Virus record (IMG/VR): IMGVR_UViG_3300032242_000743
Location: 1 to 33,792 of that record
DNA from: a virus
Direction: 5' to 3' (one strand)
Length of the DNA stretch: 33,792 nt
Shown: in pieces, positions 3,001-26,170 of the stretch
Position numbering within the stretch: position 1 is the first letter of the stretch
Layout: each line of letters starts with the position of its first letter
Notes under the pieces: model-generated
What the model saw: the letters and a program-made list of their open reading frames with translations, nothing else
Databases searched by the model: none
Told to the model about the DNA's origin: nothing
Translations under genes and position numbers: made by a program

Positions 3001-3306
3001 TCCTTGCTTATTGTTAAAGGTATTCCAATCTGTAGAACTTAGGTATCCGTTGGTTGTTGAGGATGCCTGTGATATAGATATTATTGGTGTTAACCCTCCC
3101 GTAGAAGATAATGGTGAGTTTGCTGATAAACTACTTAAATAACTAAGTAAGGGTATTTGAGAGACAGGAACTAAACCAGAGCTATCTAATGTAGCAACCC
3201 CGTTAGCCCCACCTAAAGGAACTGTTGTAACAATACCTGTATTTGCTACTAAAACTCCGTTATCGCTTCTTAGCCTTAATTCATGCTCAATATACGCTTG
3301 GCTCAT
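1..3306 (-). CDS. Tail fibre / receptor-binding protein, 3' end outside window
   Basis: An open frame runs from an ATG at 3306 to the left edge with no stop in the lines translated, so at least 1,102 codons are present and the C-terminus is missing. The start reads MSQAYIEHELRLRSDNGVLV. The protein is rich in Ser, Thr, Gly and Asn. It holds two copies of NGYLSSTDWNTFNNKQ, two of LTTTGSSGxATxSxGTLNIP, about five GNVGIGTTTP-like units, and two copies of IGSKFQVNGNAAIGYSAST. These motifs are typical of trimeric beta-rich phage fibres, often ending in a self-cleaving S74-type chaperone domain. Such a domain would lie beyond the window and cannot be confirmed. The gene is last in the structural cluster and starts 8 nt after a small accessory gene, consistent with host recognition at the virion surface. 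Confidence 0.88.
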   Translation of the reverse strand, partial: MSQAYIEHELRLRSDNGVLVANTGIVTTVPLGGANGVATLDSSGLVPVSQIPLLSYLSSLSANSPLSSTGGLTPIISISQASSTTNGYLSSTDWNTFNNKQGAITNAITGTGAIGQVAYWNGTNTQTGSNILKFDGTNLTIGNPSTVLANLHVYNSSAAASFLLQTNSTTNYSEISVRNDNSTATSYFRQYSTATSGNDFGLARAGLATFFSNYATNFAIGTMNGGNLIFGTSNTERARILSSNGYFGLNTTSPAFLLDVNGTTRISGQLTLGSTITNGTYTYTLPGSTGTLALLTDIPSISATAPISYSGGVISISQSTTSTNGYLSSTDWNTFNNKQTALGYTPVPNTRQLTINGTTYDLSADRTWTISIPVTSVFGRTGVVVAQSGDYTTTLVTEGTNLYFTNTRAQNAIALTTTGSSGAATYSGGTLNIPNYGSALNGYVPYTGATQDLNLGTKNYYGNAYFDGFTSVAASGTQIVLTVNSTPSYLVTGSGGQTFKLPDATTLPNGADFYFNNNQSSGAILVNNNSNTLVKSVSSGGYLVLTLIDNTISAGGWDEHFYAPSNVSWSTNTLDYAGSITSATWNGNVIAINRGGTGASTAAAALTNLGAQPLSTNLTSLAGLSYASASFVKMTAAGTFTLDTATYQTPITLTTTGSSGSATFSSGTLNIPTYTLAGLGGVSSNIYTADGTLASNRTISAGGFTLTINPQTTFSPSITVSGAIARGTIFTPTLTAAANGDVLTGLYINPTFNAGGASTYTSAGLVVASGYVGIGTNTPVRTLDLVTSTSLGTVIRMQSTYTNGRIYGIGSNFITGVGEFGLYDYTASAERFRVDSNGNFGIGTSTIGSKFQVNGNAAIGYSASTAAPTNGLAVAGSIGFGTTTVSAWGSGFEALQKGYASFYSNGTANLNIGYNGYYTGSAFQYINNGYASLYQQNGLSTGGHLFYVAGNNASGANAALTFTAAMFINSTGNVGIGTTTPDSKLHVLTGGGTPTNQLKINYNSTNDNYYDAANHYFRSGDGSTARLYVLSTGNVGIGTTTIGSKFQVNGNAAIGYSASTAAPTNGLAVAANATIGTSSNTASSSFVVNSSGTAPNSWVSAL

Positions 3307-3314
3307 AATTATTT

Positions 3315-3911
3315 TTAGTTAAACAATGCAACAATATTCACCCCAGCTCCAAGAGCATTACCAAATGTTATCTTACCTGTATTGGTATCCCATAATACTT
3401 GGTCAGTAGTTGGGGTGCCACTTGTTATAATTTGATTAACAGTAACACCACCTCTTGAAATATAAACTAAAGACTTACTAATCATATCTGAATATGTTAT
3501 AGAAGTCTCACCACCTGCTGCAGTGTATGATTTATTTATTATCGTTACTGAGTAAACAACATTTGTAATAACAGTAGATGTTGGATTACCAGTAATAATG
3601 CCATTTGGATTGTTAGCTATAATAGCAGCATTCTGAACCCAATGACCTATGTAGGTATATAAGAAATTTACAAGTCTATCGTAAGTAGGATTACCTGCAT
3701 AACCTGGAACATAAGCCTGAATAGCCGTATTTAAACTATTATAATAAGGTTGATAATACCTTAAAACATCATCCAATATATAAATTAACTCTAATCTATC
3801 TGTCTCATCTACCCAATTATAAAACTTCTCTATCTCATATTCATCAGCACCTAGGTACATTGATATATCAGCATATTGAAGTATTGCGGTTATTTGGTCA
3901 TTAGTATGCAT
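3315..3911 (-). CDS. Fibre- or tail-associated structural protein (198 aa), hypothetical
   Basis: The function is not recognised. The N-terminal 60 residues look helical and acidic. The C-terminal part is beta-rich and ends in DQVLWDTNTGKITFGNALG followed by a hydrophobic tail, a style seen at the ends of tail-fibre attachment proteins. Its ATG shares one base with the stop codon of the gene upstream (TAATG), which suggests translational coupling. It lies directly before the fibre gene, so a fibre adaptor or baseplate role is likely by position only. Confidence 0.7.
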   Translation of the reverse strand: MHTNDQITAILQYADISMYLGADEYEIEKFYNWVDETDRLELIYILDDVLRYYQPYYNSLNTAIQAYVPGYAGNPTYDRLVNFLYTYIGHWVQNAAIIANNPNGIITGNPTSTVITNVVYSVTIINKSYTAAGGETSITYSDMISKSLVYISRGGVTVNQIITSGTPTTDQVLWDTNTGKITFGNALGAGVNIVALFN

Positions 3912-4467: not shown

Positions 4468-4475
4468 CAAATATA
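4468..4475 (-). promoter_or_regulatory. Candidate -7 element before the tail accessory genes
   Basis: On the minus strand this is TATATTTG, a match to the Bacteroidota -7 consensus TANNTTTG, 15 nt from the ATG at 4453. No TTTG lies at the usual 19-nt spacing upstream, so it is a half match. Confidence 0.4.
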
Positions 4476-4489
4476 AGCTTTTTTTAGCT

Positions 4490-4828
4490 TTAGTATTTAG
4501 GCTTCCTTCTCATAATATTTGTAGCAATTCTTACAGACACTAAATTTAATTTTGCATAATCATGAACTTCTTGATGACAATTTTTACATAGACATATTAT
4601 TGTTCTTAATTCATGCTTAGTATGTATCCATTTATAAGAAGTATGATGTAAATGTAAATTTTCTTTTGATTTACAAAATAAACAAGACTGATAGCATTTT
4701 CTTTTTGATGCTTTTTCTTTTACTGATTTCCACCAATCACTATTTAAGTAATCAGTATATGATTCGTAAATCATGTTTGAATCTCTTCTATTCCATGTAT
4801 CGTTGTATGTATAATCTATATCTTTCAT
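4490..4828 (-). CDS. HNH endonuclease (112 aa), probably homing-type
   Basis: A small HNH nuclease with a zinc-ribbon frame: C49 and C52 (CLFC), the pair H61-H62 in LHLHH, and C81, C84, H85 and H89 in CLCKNCHQEVH. This order (Cys pair, HH, Cys pair, His) is the normal HNH arrangement in phage endonucleases, which cut DNA and often spread as selfish genes. The N-terminal 45 residues are polar and may help bind DNA. It is the only gene after a 470-base structured non-coding stretch with its own promoter. Group I introns and HEARO-type RNAs can carry HNH genes, but neither could be shown here because the genes on both sides look intact. Confidence 0.82.
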   Translation of the reverse strand: MKDIDYTYNDTWNRRDSNMIYESYTDYLNSDWWKSVKEKASKRKCYQSCLFCKSKENLHLHHTSYKWIHTKHELRTIICLCKNCHQEVHDYAKLNLVSVRIATNIMRRKPKY

Positions 4829-5131
4829 AATGTGTTGATTTATAATGTTTTGTAAAATAACAACCTACCCAAAGGTTGTAACTAGAGCAAGGAGGTAAGG
4901 GAAATGGTAAGTCAGCCCCCTGCCCCCAACAGAGAACTGACTTTATATCCTACCCAATAGGCGTGAACTTATCGCGAAGTGAGGCTGAATGGTTACTGCA
5001 AGTCGTGAAGCTATACCATTCATTTAAAAGATTAAATATCAGATTCCCAAGGATGGTCCTTATGCGTTTACCTACAATAGTCTAGGACTATGTTCAGTTG
5101 CAGTAGCCATATTGCTTTGACTACATCCAAT
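4829..5131 (-). other. Structured non-coding leader of the HNH gene, with a likely pseudoknot
   Basis: No convincing ORF was seen in this stretch. On the minus strand it can form several helices: 5015-5022 with 4986-4993 (8 bp), 4937-4943 with 4909-4915 (7 bp, loop with two runs of five G), and 4873-4879 with 4860-4866 (7 bp). A further 8-bp pairing joins 5098-5105 (TACTGCAA in the RNA) with 4994-5001 (TTGCAGTA), which lies in the loop of the first hairpin and would make a pseudoknot. The motif CCTnTGGGTAGG occurs twice. Function is unknown. It would be transcribed only by read-through of the terminator at 5132-5160. Confidence 0.5.
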
Positions 5132-5160
5132 AAAAAACCCACCAAGTGAGATTTGATGGG
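5132..5160 (-). terminator. Rho-independent terminator of the putative RNA
   Basis: In the minus-strand RNA, CCCATCAA pairs with TTGGTGGG (8 bp with one G-U pair) around a 7-nt loop and is followed by six U. The loop is almost exactly the 3' strand of the competing outer helix. Confidence 0.75.
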
Positions 5161-5266
5161 TTGATTAGAAACACTCTTCTTTAAGGAGTGTCGTTCCAAA
5201 GATTCTATCTTATGGAGGGTTCTTGTCAACCCAATAACGTAATCTCACTACCTTATCGGATTTGCA
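5132..5266 (-). ncRNA. Putative phage small RNA or riboswitch-like leader, three-way junction
   Basis: A transcript of about 130 nt starting near 5266 would end at the terminator at 5132. Two nested helices close the fold: an outer 9-bp helix (5241-5249 with 5145-5153) and an inner 8-bp helix (5226-5233 with 5157-5164), both without mismatches. Inside are two hairpins, 5195-5203 with 5207-5216 (9 bp, one bulge) and 5171-5176 with 5186-5191. The 3' strands of the closing helices overlap the 5' arm and loop of the terminator, so the closed fold and the terminator exclude each other, as in riboswitch expression platforms. No known RNA class was recognised. Confidence 0.55.
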
Positions 5267-5269
5267 ACA

Positions 5270-5300
5270 CAAAGATATGAACTTATTTTATTCTACCAAA
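5270..5300 (-). promoter_or_regulatory. Bacteroidota-type promoter, perfect consensus
   Basis: On the minus strand this reads TTTG, 19 nt, TATCTTTG, matching the -33/-7 consensus TTTG-N19-TANNTTTG exactly. It begins immediately after the stop codon of the 959-aa gene and points into the non-coding locus. Transcription should start near 5263-5266. It is the only full match I found. Confidence 0.7.
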
Positions 5301-8180
5301 TTATTTTCTAGCACCTCTTTTTGTTTCTCTCATAGATGACCTTCTCATCTTATTTTCTTGCTTCCTTAAATTATTTGCTATCTTAAGATTATCAATATGT
5401 GGCTTAAACATATTAGGGAACATCATTTGTTGAATATCCCCAAATATCTTAAATGAGTTTTCATCCTCAGCTGAATATTTAGGCTTAAAGTCAAAACCAA
5501 AATGTTCAAACATCCTTCCTACAACTGGGTTTATATCCTCTAATCCCTGTGCAATATTGGCTCCAGATTGTTCAAGACCATTTTTCATAGTCTTAACGCT
5601 TCTCATCAATCCTAATTCTGGCTTACCTGTCAAATTATCTCTCAATGATGATATGTGAGGAGAAACTCCTAATGTAGCAGTAGTAAGGAACTTTATACCA
5701 GGTGAACTTACTAATGGTGTTAAGAATGAGTTTAATTGGTCTTTTTTAACAGCCTCAGATGCCTGACCTAATGTAGCACCTTGAATATAAGAATTATATG
5801 CAGCCTCGGCACCTATAGCTCTTTCACCTCTTTCTATTATCGGATTAAGGAATCCCATATTAAAATCTTGAAGCTGCCCATTCTTATAGAACATAGACTT
5901 TAACAAAGGATTGCTATCAATTGTTTTTTTGCCTTCAGGAGTTACCCTAAGTTTTAAAAATCTAGATTCTTTATCATCCCATGGGAACTTCCCGTATAGT
6001 GCATAGGAGGCTGCAACCCATGTACCAACCAATCCGACAACACCTCCTGAAAACATGTGAGCAGCTCTCATTGTCATTCTTCTAGGTAGCGTTTGGCCTT
6101 CTGTTGGAAGTGGAGCCATGCCTAAAGAACCTTTTATACCATTTTTAAGGAAGGTAGATGATGCGGTAAAGAATGGAGCCATACCATTTCTCTTTACGGT
6201 TCTTTCTAGCTGACCTTCTAGACCTTTCACATAGTTACCTAGTTGATATGAAAATTGTCTTCTTTGTTCAGGTGTTGCATCTGGATTTATTTCAAGACAT
6301 ATTCTATCCATTAAAACCCTTGCTTTAATATCAATACCCTTTCTACCGTACAATATTCTTGATGGGTCTATTTTCCATACTTTCTTAGCTCCTGTTGCCT
6401 CAGATATTTCTTGAGAGCCAGTTAATGAACCAGACTTTTCAGGTAATAATCCAATAGCAGCCATTTCTTGTATATGCTTGATAGCATTTTCACTTGTTAC
6501 ATCTTCTGAAATAATATTAAATATACCTGTAAATATTTTTGTTACAGGGGTGTTACCTATTGTTTTTGATAAAAGAGAGGTACCTGCCCATGGTGTTCCA
6601 TTAACCAAGGCACCAACAAGATTTGTAGAGTGTATTGATGCCTCTATTGGTCCACCTAATGAAAATGCTGTAATTTTATCCATTACCTTTCCGAAAACAG
6701 TTTTATTCATTACCCTCTCATTCAGCATTGGTTCAAGCTCTTTTGCTAACCAATTAGGTATTAAGGCTTTCTTGCCTGGCACTCTTTTGCCATTTATTAT
6801 TCTATCTTCCGTTATCTGAACTACAGTGGCATTGTAGTCAACTCCATTAATAGTTATTTTTTTATTAGTAAGCTCTTCTGCAGTTCCTATCTTCAATAAG
6901 CCAGCATCTTGCATAGACTTTATAAGAACGTTTTTATTGTTAGCCTTGAATGCTGCTGTTACTCTTTCAGATAGTTTATCAACGGCAATATCATAAGCAT
7001 TGGAAAGACCTGTAGCAAATGTATTTGCCTGATTTCTTCTGCTATTTAATTTTGGTCCTCTCTTTGTAAATAATTTATTACCCTTCTCATCTAAAGGTAT
7101 TAATGGATAATATGTATCTAGTTCTCCAAGCGCATTAGAAAATACACCTTCGTTTGAGGCGTGATTCTCTGTTAATGGAGCCTCTATAAGCTCCTTATAC
7201 ATTGATAATGCCTCTTGTGTTTTTTGGTCATTTTTTATTTCTTCATAACTAGGCCCACCACTAAAGTCAATTTTGGCTACATTTTCTGATGCGTTTTTAA
7301 ACGCTCCTGATAGAAGTGCTCTTAGTTGTTCAAAGTCTCCTGATTCCAACAATGTAGCTGCATCTGTTTGTAAATTTGATAATGGATTTCTTTGTTCTAT
7401 TTCATTTAACAATACAGCATAATTACCACTCCCCTCAGCCTTAAATCCATTTACTAAATCTTCATCACTCATTGTAAGAACTGTTCTAGACATATCTTCC
7501 CATCTATGTCTTATACCATCAAGTCTAGACTGAACTAATACTTTTCTTAAATTACTCCAAGTTTCATTACCATATTTTCTAGAAATCTCAGATACTGCAC
7601 CTTTAAGCAAAGAAGCAGCCTGTGAGGCTGATGAGAAATATTTTGCAACAGCATCTTTTACATCTTGAGAAATCTTACCTAACTGATTAAAATTACTTAC
7701 AAAATAATCTTTAGCCCACGGTATTAAGCCTACTCTTTCTTTTTGTTTATTACCTTCTTGTTGTTGCTTTTCTCCTACAACATTTGTAAATAAATTTTGT
7801 GAAATTTTACCTGCCTCATATTTATTTTTACCGTCCTCGTATATTTTTCTAAGGTTTTCATCTGTTTGGTCTATTCCAAATCTATTAGAGAAACTTTCCT
7901 TGAAATCATCAAAACTTAATTCTCCTTGGCCATTAATAAACTGACCTCTAGCATAGTTAACCCATTTATTATATTGAGCTTCTTCTCTGCTAATCTTTCC
8001 TAAAAGATAATCAATAGCTTTATCAACAGGAGGAGTATCTCCATATCTATGAAAAGCCATTTCAGCTATTTCTTCTATTTGTTCATCAGTATAATCACTT
8101 CCTTGTTGTTTAAATTTTTCTTTTAAACCATTTTTAAGGTCATACCATTCTTTAGAACTTTTATTTGGGCAAATAGACAT
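5301..8180 (-). CDS. Large internal virion (ejection) protein candidate (959 aa)
   Basis: I start it at the ATG at 8180 (MSICPNKSSKEWYDL), one base after the stop of the 50-aa gene. An in-frame start 33 nt further up would overlap that gene. The protein is mostly helical. The N-terminal 70 residues resemble the opening of large polyvalent phage proteins in Bacteroidota phages (CPNKSSKEW with a DEQIEEIAEMAFHRYGD helix). One membrane-like helix is visible in the last third (SGGVVGLVGTWVAASYALYG), and the C-terminus is basic (RRSSMRETKRGARK). No catalytic site was seen. Length, position after the nozzle gene, and the membrane-like segment fit a protein stored in the head and ejected with DNA. 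That role is inferred. Confidence 0.72.
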   Translation of the reverse strand: MSICPNKSSKEWYDLKNGLKEKFKQQGSDYTDEQIEEIAEMAFHRYGDTPPVDKAIDYLLGKISREEAQYNKWVNYARGQFINGQGELSFDDFKESFSNRFGIDQTDENLRKIYEDGKNKYEAGKISQNLFTNVVGEKQQQEGNKQKERVGLIPWAKDYFVSNFNQLGKISQDVKDAVAKYFSSASQAASLLKGAVSEISRKYGNETWSNLRKVLVQSRLDGIRHRWEDMSRTVLTMSDEDLVNGFKAEGSGNYAVLLNEIEQRNPLSNLQTDAATLLESGDFEQLRALLSGAFKNASENVAKIDFSGGPSYEEIKNDQKTQEALSMYKELIEAPLTENHASNEGVFSNALGELDTYYPLIPLDEKGNKLFTKRGPKLNSRRNQANTFATGLSNAYDIAVDKLSERVTAAFKANNKNVLIKSMQDAGLLKIGTAEELTNKKITINGVDYNATVVQITEDRIINGKRVPGKKALIPNWLAKELEPMLNERVMNKTVFGKVMDKITAFSLGGPIEASIHSTNLVGALVNGTPWAGTSLLSKTIGNTPVTKIFTGIFNIISEDVTSENAIKHIQEMAAIGLLPEKSGSLTGSQEISEATGAKKVWKIDPSRILYGRKGIDIKARVLMDRICLEINPDATPEQRRQFSYQLGNYVKGLEGQLERTVKRNGMAPFFTASSTFLKNGIKGSLGMAPLPTEGQTLPRRMTMRAAHMFSGGVVGLVGTWVAASYALYGKFPWDDKESRFLKLRVTPEGKKTIDSNPLLKSMFYKNGQLQDFNMGFLNPIIERGERAIGAEAAYNSYIQGATLGQASEAVKKDQLNSFLTPLVSSPGIKFLTTATLGVSPHISSLRDNLTGKPELGLMRSVKTMKNGLEQSGANIAQGLEDINPVVGRMFEHFGFDFKPKYSAEDENSFKIFGDIQQMMFPNMFKPHIDNLKIANNLRKQENKMRRSSMRETKRGARK

Positions 8181-8181
8181 A

Positions 8182-8334
8182 TTACTTTTTCTTTTTAGCA
8201 GCACTAATTGCAATTGCTACAATCTGTTTTTGGGTTCTTGGTTTAGTTCCCTTATGTGCTAGTTCATGAATATTAGCGCTAATAGCTGATTGGATAGCTT
8301 TTTTACTTTTACCTTTAGCAGACTTTAGTGGCAT
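8182..8334 (-). CDS. Small lysine-rich protein (50 aa)
   Basis: A short gene that fits exactly between its neighbours: ATG at 8334 just after the ATP-grasp stop, TAA at 8182-8184 just before the next ATG. It reads MPLKSAKGKSKKAIQSAIS at the start and ends KPRTQKQIVAIAISAAKKKK. The last part matches a motif common in small basic phage and bacterial proteins (K/R-QAIAIALSEA; I think of DUF6496-like proteins, from memory). It is probably nucleic-acid binding or a minor virion component. Exact packing between two genes supports translation. Confidence 0.75.
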   Translation of the reverse strand: MPLKSAKGKSKKAIQSAISANIHELAHKGTKPRTQKQIVAIAISAAKKKK

Positions 8335-22831: not shown

Positions 22832-22862
22832 CAAAGTTAAGTAATAATATTACCTAAACAAT
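22832..22862 (-). promoter_or_regulatory. Promoter candidate for the 301-aa gene
   Basis: On the minus strand: ATTG, 19 nt, TAACTTTG. The -7 element fits TANNTTTG and the -33 element has TTG with correct spacing. The ATG follows 15 nt after the -7 element, and two 13-nt direct repeats lie just upstream. Confidence 0.55.
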
Positions 22863-22880
22863 AAAAATGCCAAACTTTTT

Positions 22881-22934
22881 TTTTGACACCTATGACAGAA
22901 ACATAAGTCAGAATGAGCCGATTTTGACACCTAT
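22881..22934 (-). repeat. Two 13-nt direct repeats, ATAGGTGTCAAAA
   Basis: Identical copies at 22881-22893 and 22922-22934, 41 nt apart, upstream of the promoter at 22832-22862. The second copy lies in the loop of a 7-bp inverted repeat (TGAGCCG at 22914-22920 with CGGCTCA at 22936-22942). They look like regulator binding sites. Confidence 0.6.
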
Positions 22935-23042
22935 ACGGCTCAACCATTGTAACAAATAATGTCCCTTATATGTCACAAATATTTACGATTTTGTTCTTTT
23001 TATGACAAGTTATTATAATATAGGTACAACAATTTTTTATAA

Positions 23043-23079
23043 TGTTCACGTATTCGTGAAAGGTTTAAAAATGTGAACA
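23043..23079. repeat. Nested inverted repeats around GTTCACG/CGTGAA
   Basis: TTCACG at 23045-23050 pairs with CGTGAA at 23055-23060 (4-nt loop). TGTTCAC at 23043-23049 pairs with GTGAACA at 23073-23079. One half site is thus shared by two alternative partners. Confidence 0.6.
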
Positions 23080-23113
23080 CTTGCGTAGTATTACTACCAA
23101 CAATTAACAAATT

Positions 23114-23164
23114 ATGTTACAAGTCTATATAAATCAGTAACATATATTACCCTAAATATGTTAC
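23114..23164. repeat. Three alternating GTAACAT half sites
   Basis: ATGTTAC at 23114-23120, GTAACATAT at 23137-23145 and ATATGTTAC at 23156-23164. The last two form a perfect 9-bp inverted repeat with a 10-nt spacer, the first two a 7-bp one. Alternating half sites are usual for dimeric DNA-binding proteins or cruciforms. Confidence 0.65.
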
Positions 23165-23203
23165 AACATTTTACATATTATACCCTAACTATTTAACACA
23201 TTA

Positions 23204-23231
23204 TGCATGAATATTCAGAAAAATTCATGCA
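23204..23231. repeat. 9-bp inverted repeat TGCATGAAT/ATTCATGCA
   Basis: Perfect arms at 23204-23212 and 23223-23231 with a 10-nt spacer, the same arm and spacer size as the 23137-23164 repeat. Two further TGCA cores follow (ATGCAT at 23245, ATGCAC at 23259). Confidence 0.6.
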
Positions 23232-23347
23232 GATTTAACCAAAAATGCATATCAGAAAATGCACTTTTTGAAACATATTGCAAATTTATCGCTCAAAAAA
23301 GCCGTTTTTTGATTGACAAATAACTTTGTTGTGAACGATAAAGGCAT

Positions 23348-23375
23348 AAAAAAAGCCCCCCATTTCTGGAGGGCT
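23348..23375 (-). terminator. Rho-independent terminator of the capsid gene
   Basis: On the minus strand AGCCCTCC pairs with GGGGGGCT (one mismatch or G-U) and is followed by seven T, 21 nt after the capsid stop codon. This is a strong canonical terminator. Confidence 0.88.
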
Positions 23376-23396
23376 CTGTTATTCAATCTGTTAAGA

Positions 23397-26139: not shown

Positions 26140-26170
26140 AAAAAAAAAGGCCACCCAAGAATGGGCAGCC
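26140..26170 (-). terminator. Rho-independent terminator after the portal gene
   Basis: In the minus-strand RNA GGCUGCCCA pairs with UGGGUGGCC (9 bp, two G-U) around UUCU, then nine U follow. It separates the portal from the scaffold-capsid unit. Confidence 0.85.

Follow-up and report, generated by a model that had tools for sequence, protein, structure and literature searches.

A predicted promoter-driven RNA whose long-range helices compete with its own terminator, ahead of an HNH gene in a crAss-like phage

Two kinds of described RNA come closest to the locus analysed here. One is the leader that chooses between a terminator and an antiterminator fold; the attenuator of B. subtilis rplJL is an example that is controlled by a protein (PMC4538822). 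The other is the Bacteroides small RNA. GibS is around 145 nt long, its start site has been mapped and a terminator is present (PMC7366714). A consensus for sigma-ABfr promoters in Bacteroides has been described in the same paper (PMC7366714). The locus combines a promoter and an intrinsic terminator at small-RNA spacing, both recognised by sequence match only, with terminator and antiterminator folds that are computed to be mutually exclusive. The class of mechanism is already known; the RNA sequence itself was in none of the libraries searched and is a singleton.

The window, by which we mean the whole stretch of DNA analysed (33,792 nt), is a 33.8-kb virus record from a crAss-like phage. 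The C-terminal domain of its muzzle protein matches PF25729 (Pfam) and its portal protein matches phrog_6547. The RNA locus is on the minus strand, within 472 noncoding bases separating a 970-aa gene (5301-8213) from a small HNH gene (4490-4828). The stop codon TAA of the 970-aa gene occupies 5303-5301 (-) and the TTTG of the promoter begins at the next base. We note that the region also contains small ORFs of 20-53 aa. A search for tRNA and tmRNA found none. The features of the locus are as follows.

4490-5300, minus strand: candidate insert (RNA, spacer and HNH gene), approximate extent, absent from the relative L001
5270-5300, minus strand: Bacteroidetes-type promoter TTTG-N19-TATCTTTG, from a motif scan and the sigma-ABfr consensus (PMC7366714), with similar TATATTTGT boxes elsewhere in the phage
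5132-5266, minus strand: predicted transcript of about 130 nt, running to the T-run of the terminator, its start placed at 5266-5263 from the sequence
5257-5263, minus strand: 5′ strand of the outer helix, 5 Watson-Crick and 2 wobble pairs, partner the terminator 3′ arm at 5141-5135 (folding)
5228-5262, minus strand: 5′ hairpin X, 10+5 bp, of the terminator state (folding)
5241-5249, minus strand: 5′ strand of long-range helix A, AGTGAGATT, 9 bp (sequence and folding)
5226-5233, minus strand: 5′ strand of long-range helix B, TGGGTTGA, 8 bp (sequence and folding)
5195-5216, minus strand: inner hairpin 1, in both states (folding)
5170-5192, minus strand: inner hairpin 2, in both states (folding)
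5157-5164, minus strand: 3′ strand of helix B, TCAACCCA, which is the terminator 5′ arm (sequence and folding)
5145-5153, minus strand: 3′ strand of helix A, AATCTCACT, which is the terminator loop and stem edge (sequence and folding)
5132-5162, minus strand: intrinsic terminator, stem 5162-5153/5145-5136 and T-run 5137-5132 (terminator scan)
4860-4879, minus strand: second, weaker terminator-like hairpin upstream of the HNH gene (terminator scan)
4490-4828, minus strand: small HNH endonuclease gene, 112 aa (phrog_5200, E 3.6e-8; phrog_8048, E 3.9e-7)

A sequence-only reading of this DNA had proposed an exact promoter directly behind the stop codon, and its positions were verified on the minus strand (TTTG 5300-5297, N19, TATCTTTG 5277-5270). 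By itself the motif is not significant, with two seen against 0.97 expected. The call is strengthened by the resemblance of its −7 box to the TATATTTGT boxes ahead of other genes of the phage, by its placement right after a stop codon and by its fit to the Bacteroides consensus (PMC7366714). A −7 box is also present at 4475-4468 (-), ahead of the gene that follows HNH, and the insert thus reads as a unit of its own. The layout of promoters and terminators in this phage is regular: boxes of the TATATTTGT type precede other genes, at 4475 and 33400 (-), and strong intrinsic terminators at 26148 and 21862 (-) are each followed by such boxes before the next gene. Elsewhere in the window, an AT-rich gap of 560 nt (22835-23396, -) lies downstream of the gene for a 468-aa virion structural protein; near 23354 it has a strong terminator, and a hairpin within it is flanked by two AGGTGTCAAAA repeats.

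The two perfect nested helices that had been proposed are both exact, with nine Watson-Crick pairs in helix A (5249-5241/5153-5145) and eight in helix B (5233-5226/5164-5157). The two inner hairpins are present as well, at 5216-5195 and 5192-5170. Given the terminator stem 5162-5153/5145-5136, the 3′ sides of helices B and A are also, as had been claimed, the terminator's 5′ arm and loop. A further proposal, that GGGTT (5232-5228) pairs locally with AACCC (5221-5217) as a second switch, fared less well: the two are complementary, but the small hairpin is absent from the predicted minimum-energy folds. The sequence-only reading had omitted the 15-bp 5′ hairpin (5262-5228) and a third long-range helix (5263-5257/5141-5135). 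Finding hairpin X and this outer helix makes the two-state design symmetrical. The computed competition of helices A and B is with both the terminator and hairpin X, such that segments 1-2-3/4-5-6 form either two hairpins (1:3 and 4:6) or a single long pairing (1:6, 2:5 and 3:4).

The folding of the RNA is stronger than expected from its composition (z-score −4.57, with none of 200 shuffles equally stable) and its 140-nt window ranks second in stability among 1924 tiled on both strands. None of 2000 dinucleotide shuffles gave 17 nested perfect Watson-Crick pairs. When an upstream rival partner was sought for each of the 27 terminator-like hairpins in the window, the terminator of this RNA had 17 bp and the runner-up 8. 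The terminator state has a calculated energy of −40.7 kcal/mol and the long-range state with A and B one of −39.4 kcal/mol (model values at 37 °C), and the gap across calculations is 1.3-1.6 kcal/mol. Modelled helix probabilities are 0.78 for the terminator and 0.21 for the long-range fold. In folding of the growing transcript, lengths of 121-125 nt favour the state with A and B and lengths of at least 130 nt favour the terminator. A promoter-driven RNA in which the terminator competes with long-range helices is therefore well supported computationally, and the models suggest that it is probably a terminated transcript with a genuine terminator/antiterminator choice.

The same pairing could have arisen without function. 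If the terminator hairpin and the 5′ hairpin derive from one copied segment by inverted duplication, the long-range pairing would be a relic. Apart from small gaps the arms do align, as AAAYCC...AGTGAGATT...TGGGTTGA; further downstream, at 4992-4977, CCATTCAGCCTCACTT is a less exact third copy, and no conservation is demonstrable for the RNA. However, two states within 1.3-1.6 kcal/mol of each other are the balance expected under selection, whereas a relic would drift unless it were young. We regard this origin as unlikely.

Relatives of the RNA were sought in Rfam, viral contigs, phages and plasmids, and none was found. The Rfam 15 scan gave nothing at the gathering score and chance matches only at E up to 10; no RNA of such a kind was found described in the literature. 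An exact pattern of the 3′ strands of A and B occurs at 31 loci in the viral contigs, none of them like the RNA beyond the pattern itself. A pattern taken from the GC-rich spacer had no match in viral contigs, and the spacer had none in plasmids. No homologue of the RNA was found, hence no covariation by which to judge its helices. The proposal of a ligand-sensing leader found no support, given the lack of an RNA relative, of covariation and of an Rfam match, and an HNH start that lies 300 nt on, past a second hairpin.

The 970-aa gene has a single close relative in the viral contigs, phages and genome contigs searched, that of phage L001 (55% identity), which has neither the RNA nor the HNH gene. 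In L001 the structural genes are 44 bases apart, and the last of these bases resemble the window sequence after HNH and include the same TATATTTGTAA box. The absence of both RNA and HNH points to an insert of around 0.8 kb in the lineage of the window, or to a loss in L001. The C-terminus of the 970-aa protein is around 35 residues shorter than that of its L001 relative, and the insert may have removed this tail. In the L001 protein the tail (L001:8890-9003) is rich in Gly and Ser.

A group I intron carrying the HNH gene in the 3′ end of the 970-aa gene, with an accidental promoter and terminator, would account for the missing C-terminal residues. It was taken up for a P3-like inverted repeat of 13 nt, ATGGCTACTGCAA/TTGCAGTAACCAT (5110-5098/5001-4989), which flanks R/S-like motifs in the correct order (within 4936-5110, -), and was dropped after three negative model searches. 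RF00028 failed to match even with the threshold relaxed to E 10, whether 301 bases or the entire fragment were searched; P4-P6, P8 and a downstream exon had no credible candidates (the exon was judged by eye), and 5131-4945 folds no better than shuffles. An intron is thus very improbable. The spacer 5131-4945 (-) was also considered as a second structured RNA and rejected on the same folding result (z +0.13), its folding being ordinary.

The HNH protein has the HNH-type His/Cys motif, with HH, CxxC and CxxxH residues conserved in all six relatives, and matches phage protein profiles; it has no significant match in Pfam. Only five other phages yielded close relatives (L003, phiPsa397 (L004), L009, L010 and L011), and the genome contigs yielded none. 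In all six cases, few as they are and from unrelated phages, the gene follows a promoter-like sequence and then a leader of some 130-520 noncoding bases. Four of the leaders fold better than shuffles, with z-scores of −2.5 (phiPsa397), −2.2 (L009), −3.1 (L010) and −4.8 (L011); that of L003 does not (+1.0). The L003 gene is flanked by two similar promoter-like sequences, 3177-3219 and 3789-3831 (74% over 43 nt). At each of two sites the gene is present in one phage and absent from relatives: L001 is without the window copy, and phiPsa300, psageK4e and PN09 are without that of phiPsa397. The phiPsa397 gene (L004:2495-2857) replaces a different first gene, DUF4326-like (L005:1100-1408; identified by eye), precisely at the 3′ edge of a conserved region.

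That conserved region is the phiPsa397 leader, an RNA-like sequence that also occurs in phages lacking the HNH gene; there, at least, HNH has therefore moved without the RNA. The element is structured, about 300-400 nt long and present in at least 61 records of Pseudomonas/Otagovirus-like phages (for example L004:2185-2420, L005, L007, L010:3604-4000, L013:2500-2840, L014, L015 and L053-L062), where it is unannotated or overlapped by small hypothetical ORFs. Two copies are carried by phiPsa397, one around 24.1-24.5 kb, the other around 60.3-60.5 kb. The copies compared with Rfam, those of L004, L010 and L011, match none of its entries. The 3′ module of the element, AGGC-hairpin-GTATG, is kept in 15 of 15 aligned sequences. 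A covariance model of this module, built with L010, L011 and L013 left out, finds L010 (E 4e-5) and L013 (E 0.008); L011 and the window RNA were not detected by it, and the AGGC-hairpin-GTATG module was not found in the window RNA. The order promoter, RNA, HNH is shared by the window with phiPsa397, L010 and L011, which would suit membership of the window RNA in one structured family preceding these HNH genes in Otagovirus-like phages. Covariance models of the 3′ module nevertheless miss the window, and an unfiltered search reaches no more than 9 bits, on the opposite strand. We give such membership hardly any credence. A broader proposal is that, in many phages, the HNH family works as a single unit with the structured RNAs ahead of it. 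The RNA gene would be either the enzyme's homing target and landing site or an RNA partner or switch that controls HNH; the window would then hold the crAss-like version, with a built-in terminator switch. This too seems rather improbable to us.

The reading we prefer, to which we give about an even chance, is that the RNA is a promoter-driven, bistable and mostly terminated unit heading the HNH insert, with read-through that can be controlled. RNA polymerase would start at the promoter 5300-5270 and make an RNA of around 130 nt, normally ending at the terminator at 5136. The default would be termination, with hairpin X and the terminator hairpin both formed. In the rival state the same strands would pair end to end through the outer helix, A and B. 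As both hairpins would then be undone, polymerase would continue towards the HNH gene. The rival state is predicted to be favoured only when the terminator loop has been made and the 3′ arm has not, so pausing or a bound factor could tip the balance. The net effect would be low and controllable expression of the HNH endonuclease, insulated from the late structural operon, and release of a stable small RNA. The analysis itself establishes the sequence, its complementarity, the calculated energies and the status of the insert, while transcription, switching, read-through and the purpose of the RNA are what we infer; a small-RNA role and control of read-through into HNH are both possible.

Several results favour a controllable, bistable unit. 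The 17-pair alternative is unique among the 27 hairpins and absent from the 2000 shuffles; the two states are near-equal in calculated energy and exchange rank as the modelled transcript grows; the promoter fits both the sigma-ABfr consensus and the other −7 boxes of the phage; other operons of the phage are closed by strong terminators that have TATATTTGT boxes after them (26148 and 21862); and the RNA and HNH are jointly absent from L001. It is weakened by the lack of a homologue and of a known ligand or binding protein, and by a 300-nt ordinary spacer with a second terminator-like hairpin, unusual for an attenuator leader. Read-through transcripts from the 970-aa gene would also reach the terminator, which may thus simply insulate.

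The RNA may instead be a free-standing phage small RNA of around 130 nt that acts in trans; the long-range helices would then be either the fold in which it works or incidental, and whether transcription continues into HNH would not matter. Promoter and terminator are spaced 130 nt apart, much as in intergenic small RNAs of Bacteroides (GibS, for instance). To reach the HNH start codon, a transcript would have to run another 300 nt beyond the RNA terminator and through the hairpin 4879-4860; on account of this gap and hairpin, a plain small RNA reads nearly as well. Yet action in trans needs no exact competition between A/B and the terminator, which far exceeds chance, and no target was identified. 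We therefore hold the small-RNA explanation as possible but doubtful. Should the controllable unit behave as we predict, a crAss-like phage, from a group whose RNA biology is little explored, would have a terminator/antiterminator switch heading a homing-endonuclease insert, which would bear on how such selfish genes keep their expression low within late structural operons. Members of this HNH family repeatedly follow long noncoding leaders in phages unrelated to one another, a pattern that is open to immediate testing.

Several known systems share features with the locus. As with IscB/OMEGA, an RNA adjoins the gene, and among HNH domains of solved structure a profile comparison places those of IscB nearest, though weakly and without significance (best E 0.018, to an engineered IscB); the window protein, however, has only 112 aa, which leaves no room for the RuvC and RNA-binding parts. 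Like the free-standing HNH homing endonucleases of phages, the gene is small and absent at the same site in a relative (L001; compare phiPsa300 and others with phiPsa397). A difference is that each of its close relatives follows a long noncoding leader, and its own cleavage and homing are putative. The RNA resembles Bacteroides small RNAs such as GibS (PMC7366714) in its sigma-ABfr type promoter, its length of about 130-145 nt and its intrinsic terminator, and differs in being phage-encoded, in its strong long-range alternative fold and in having no homologue. Unlike riboswitches and attenuators, it is without a conserved aptamer, a known ligand or protein, or relatives, and 300 nt separate it from the downstream gene, which encodes a homing-type endonuclease. 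In common with terminator/antiterminator switches, both riboswitch platforms and the rplJL attenuator, it has two exclusive folds and an upstream promoter of its own, and the rival helices take their 3′ strands from the terminator's 5′ arm and loop.
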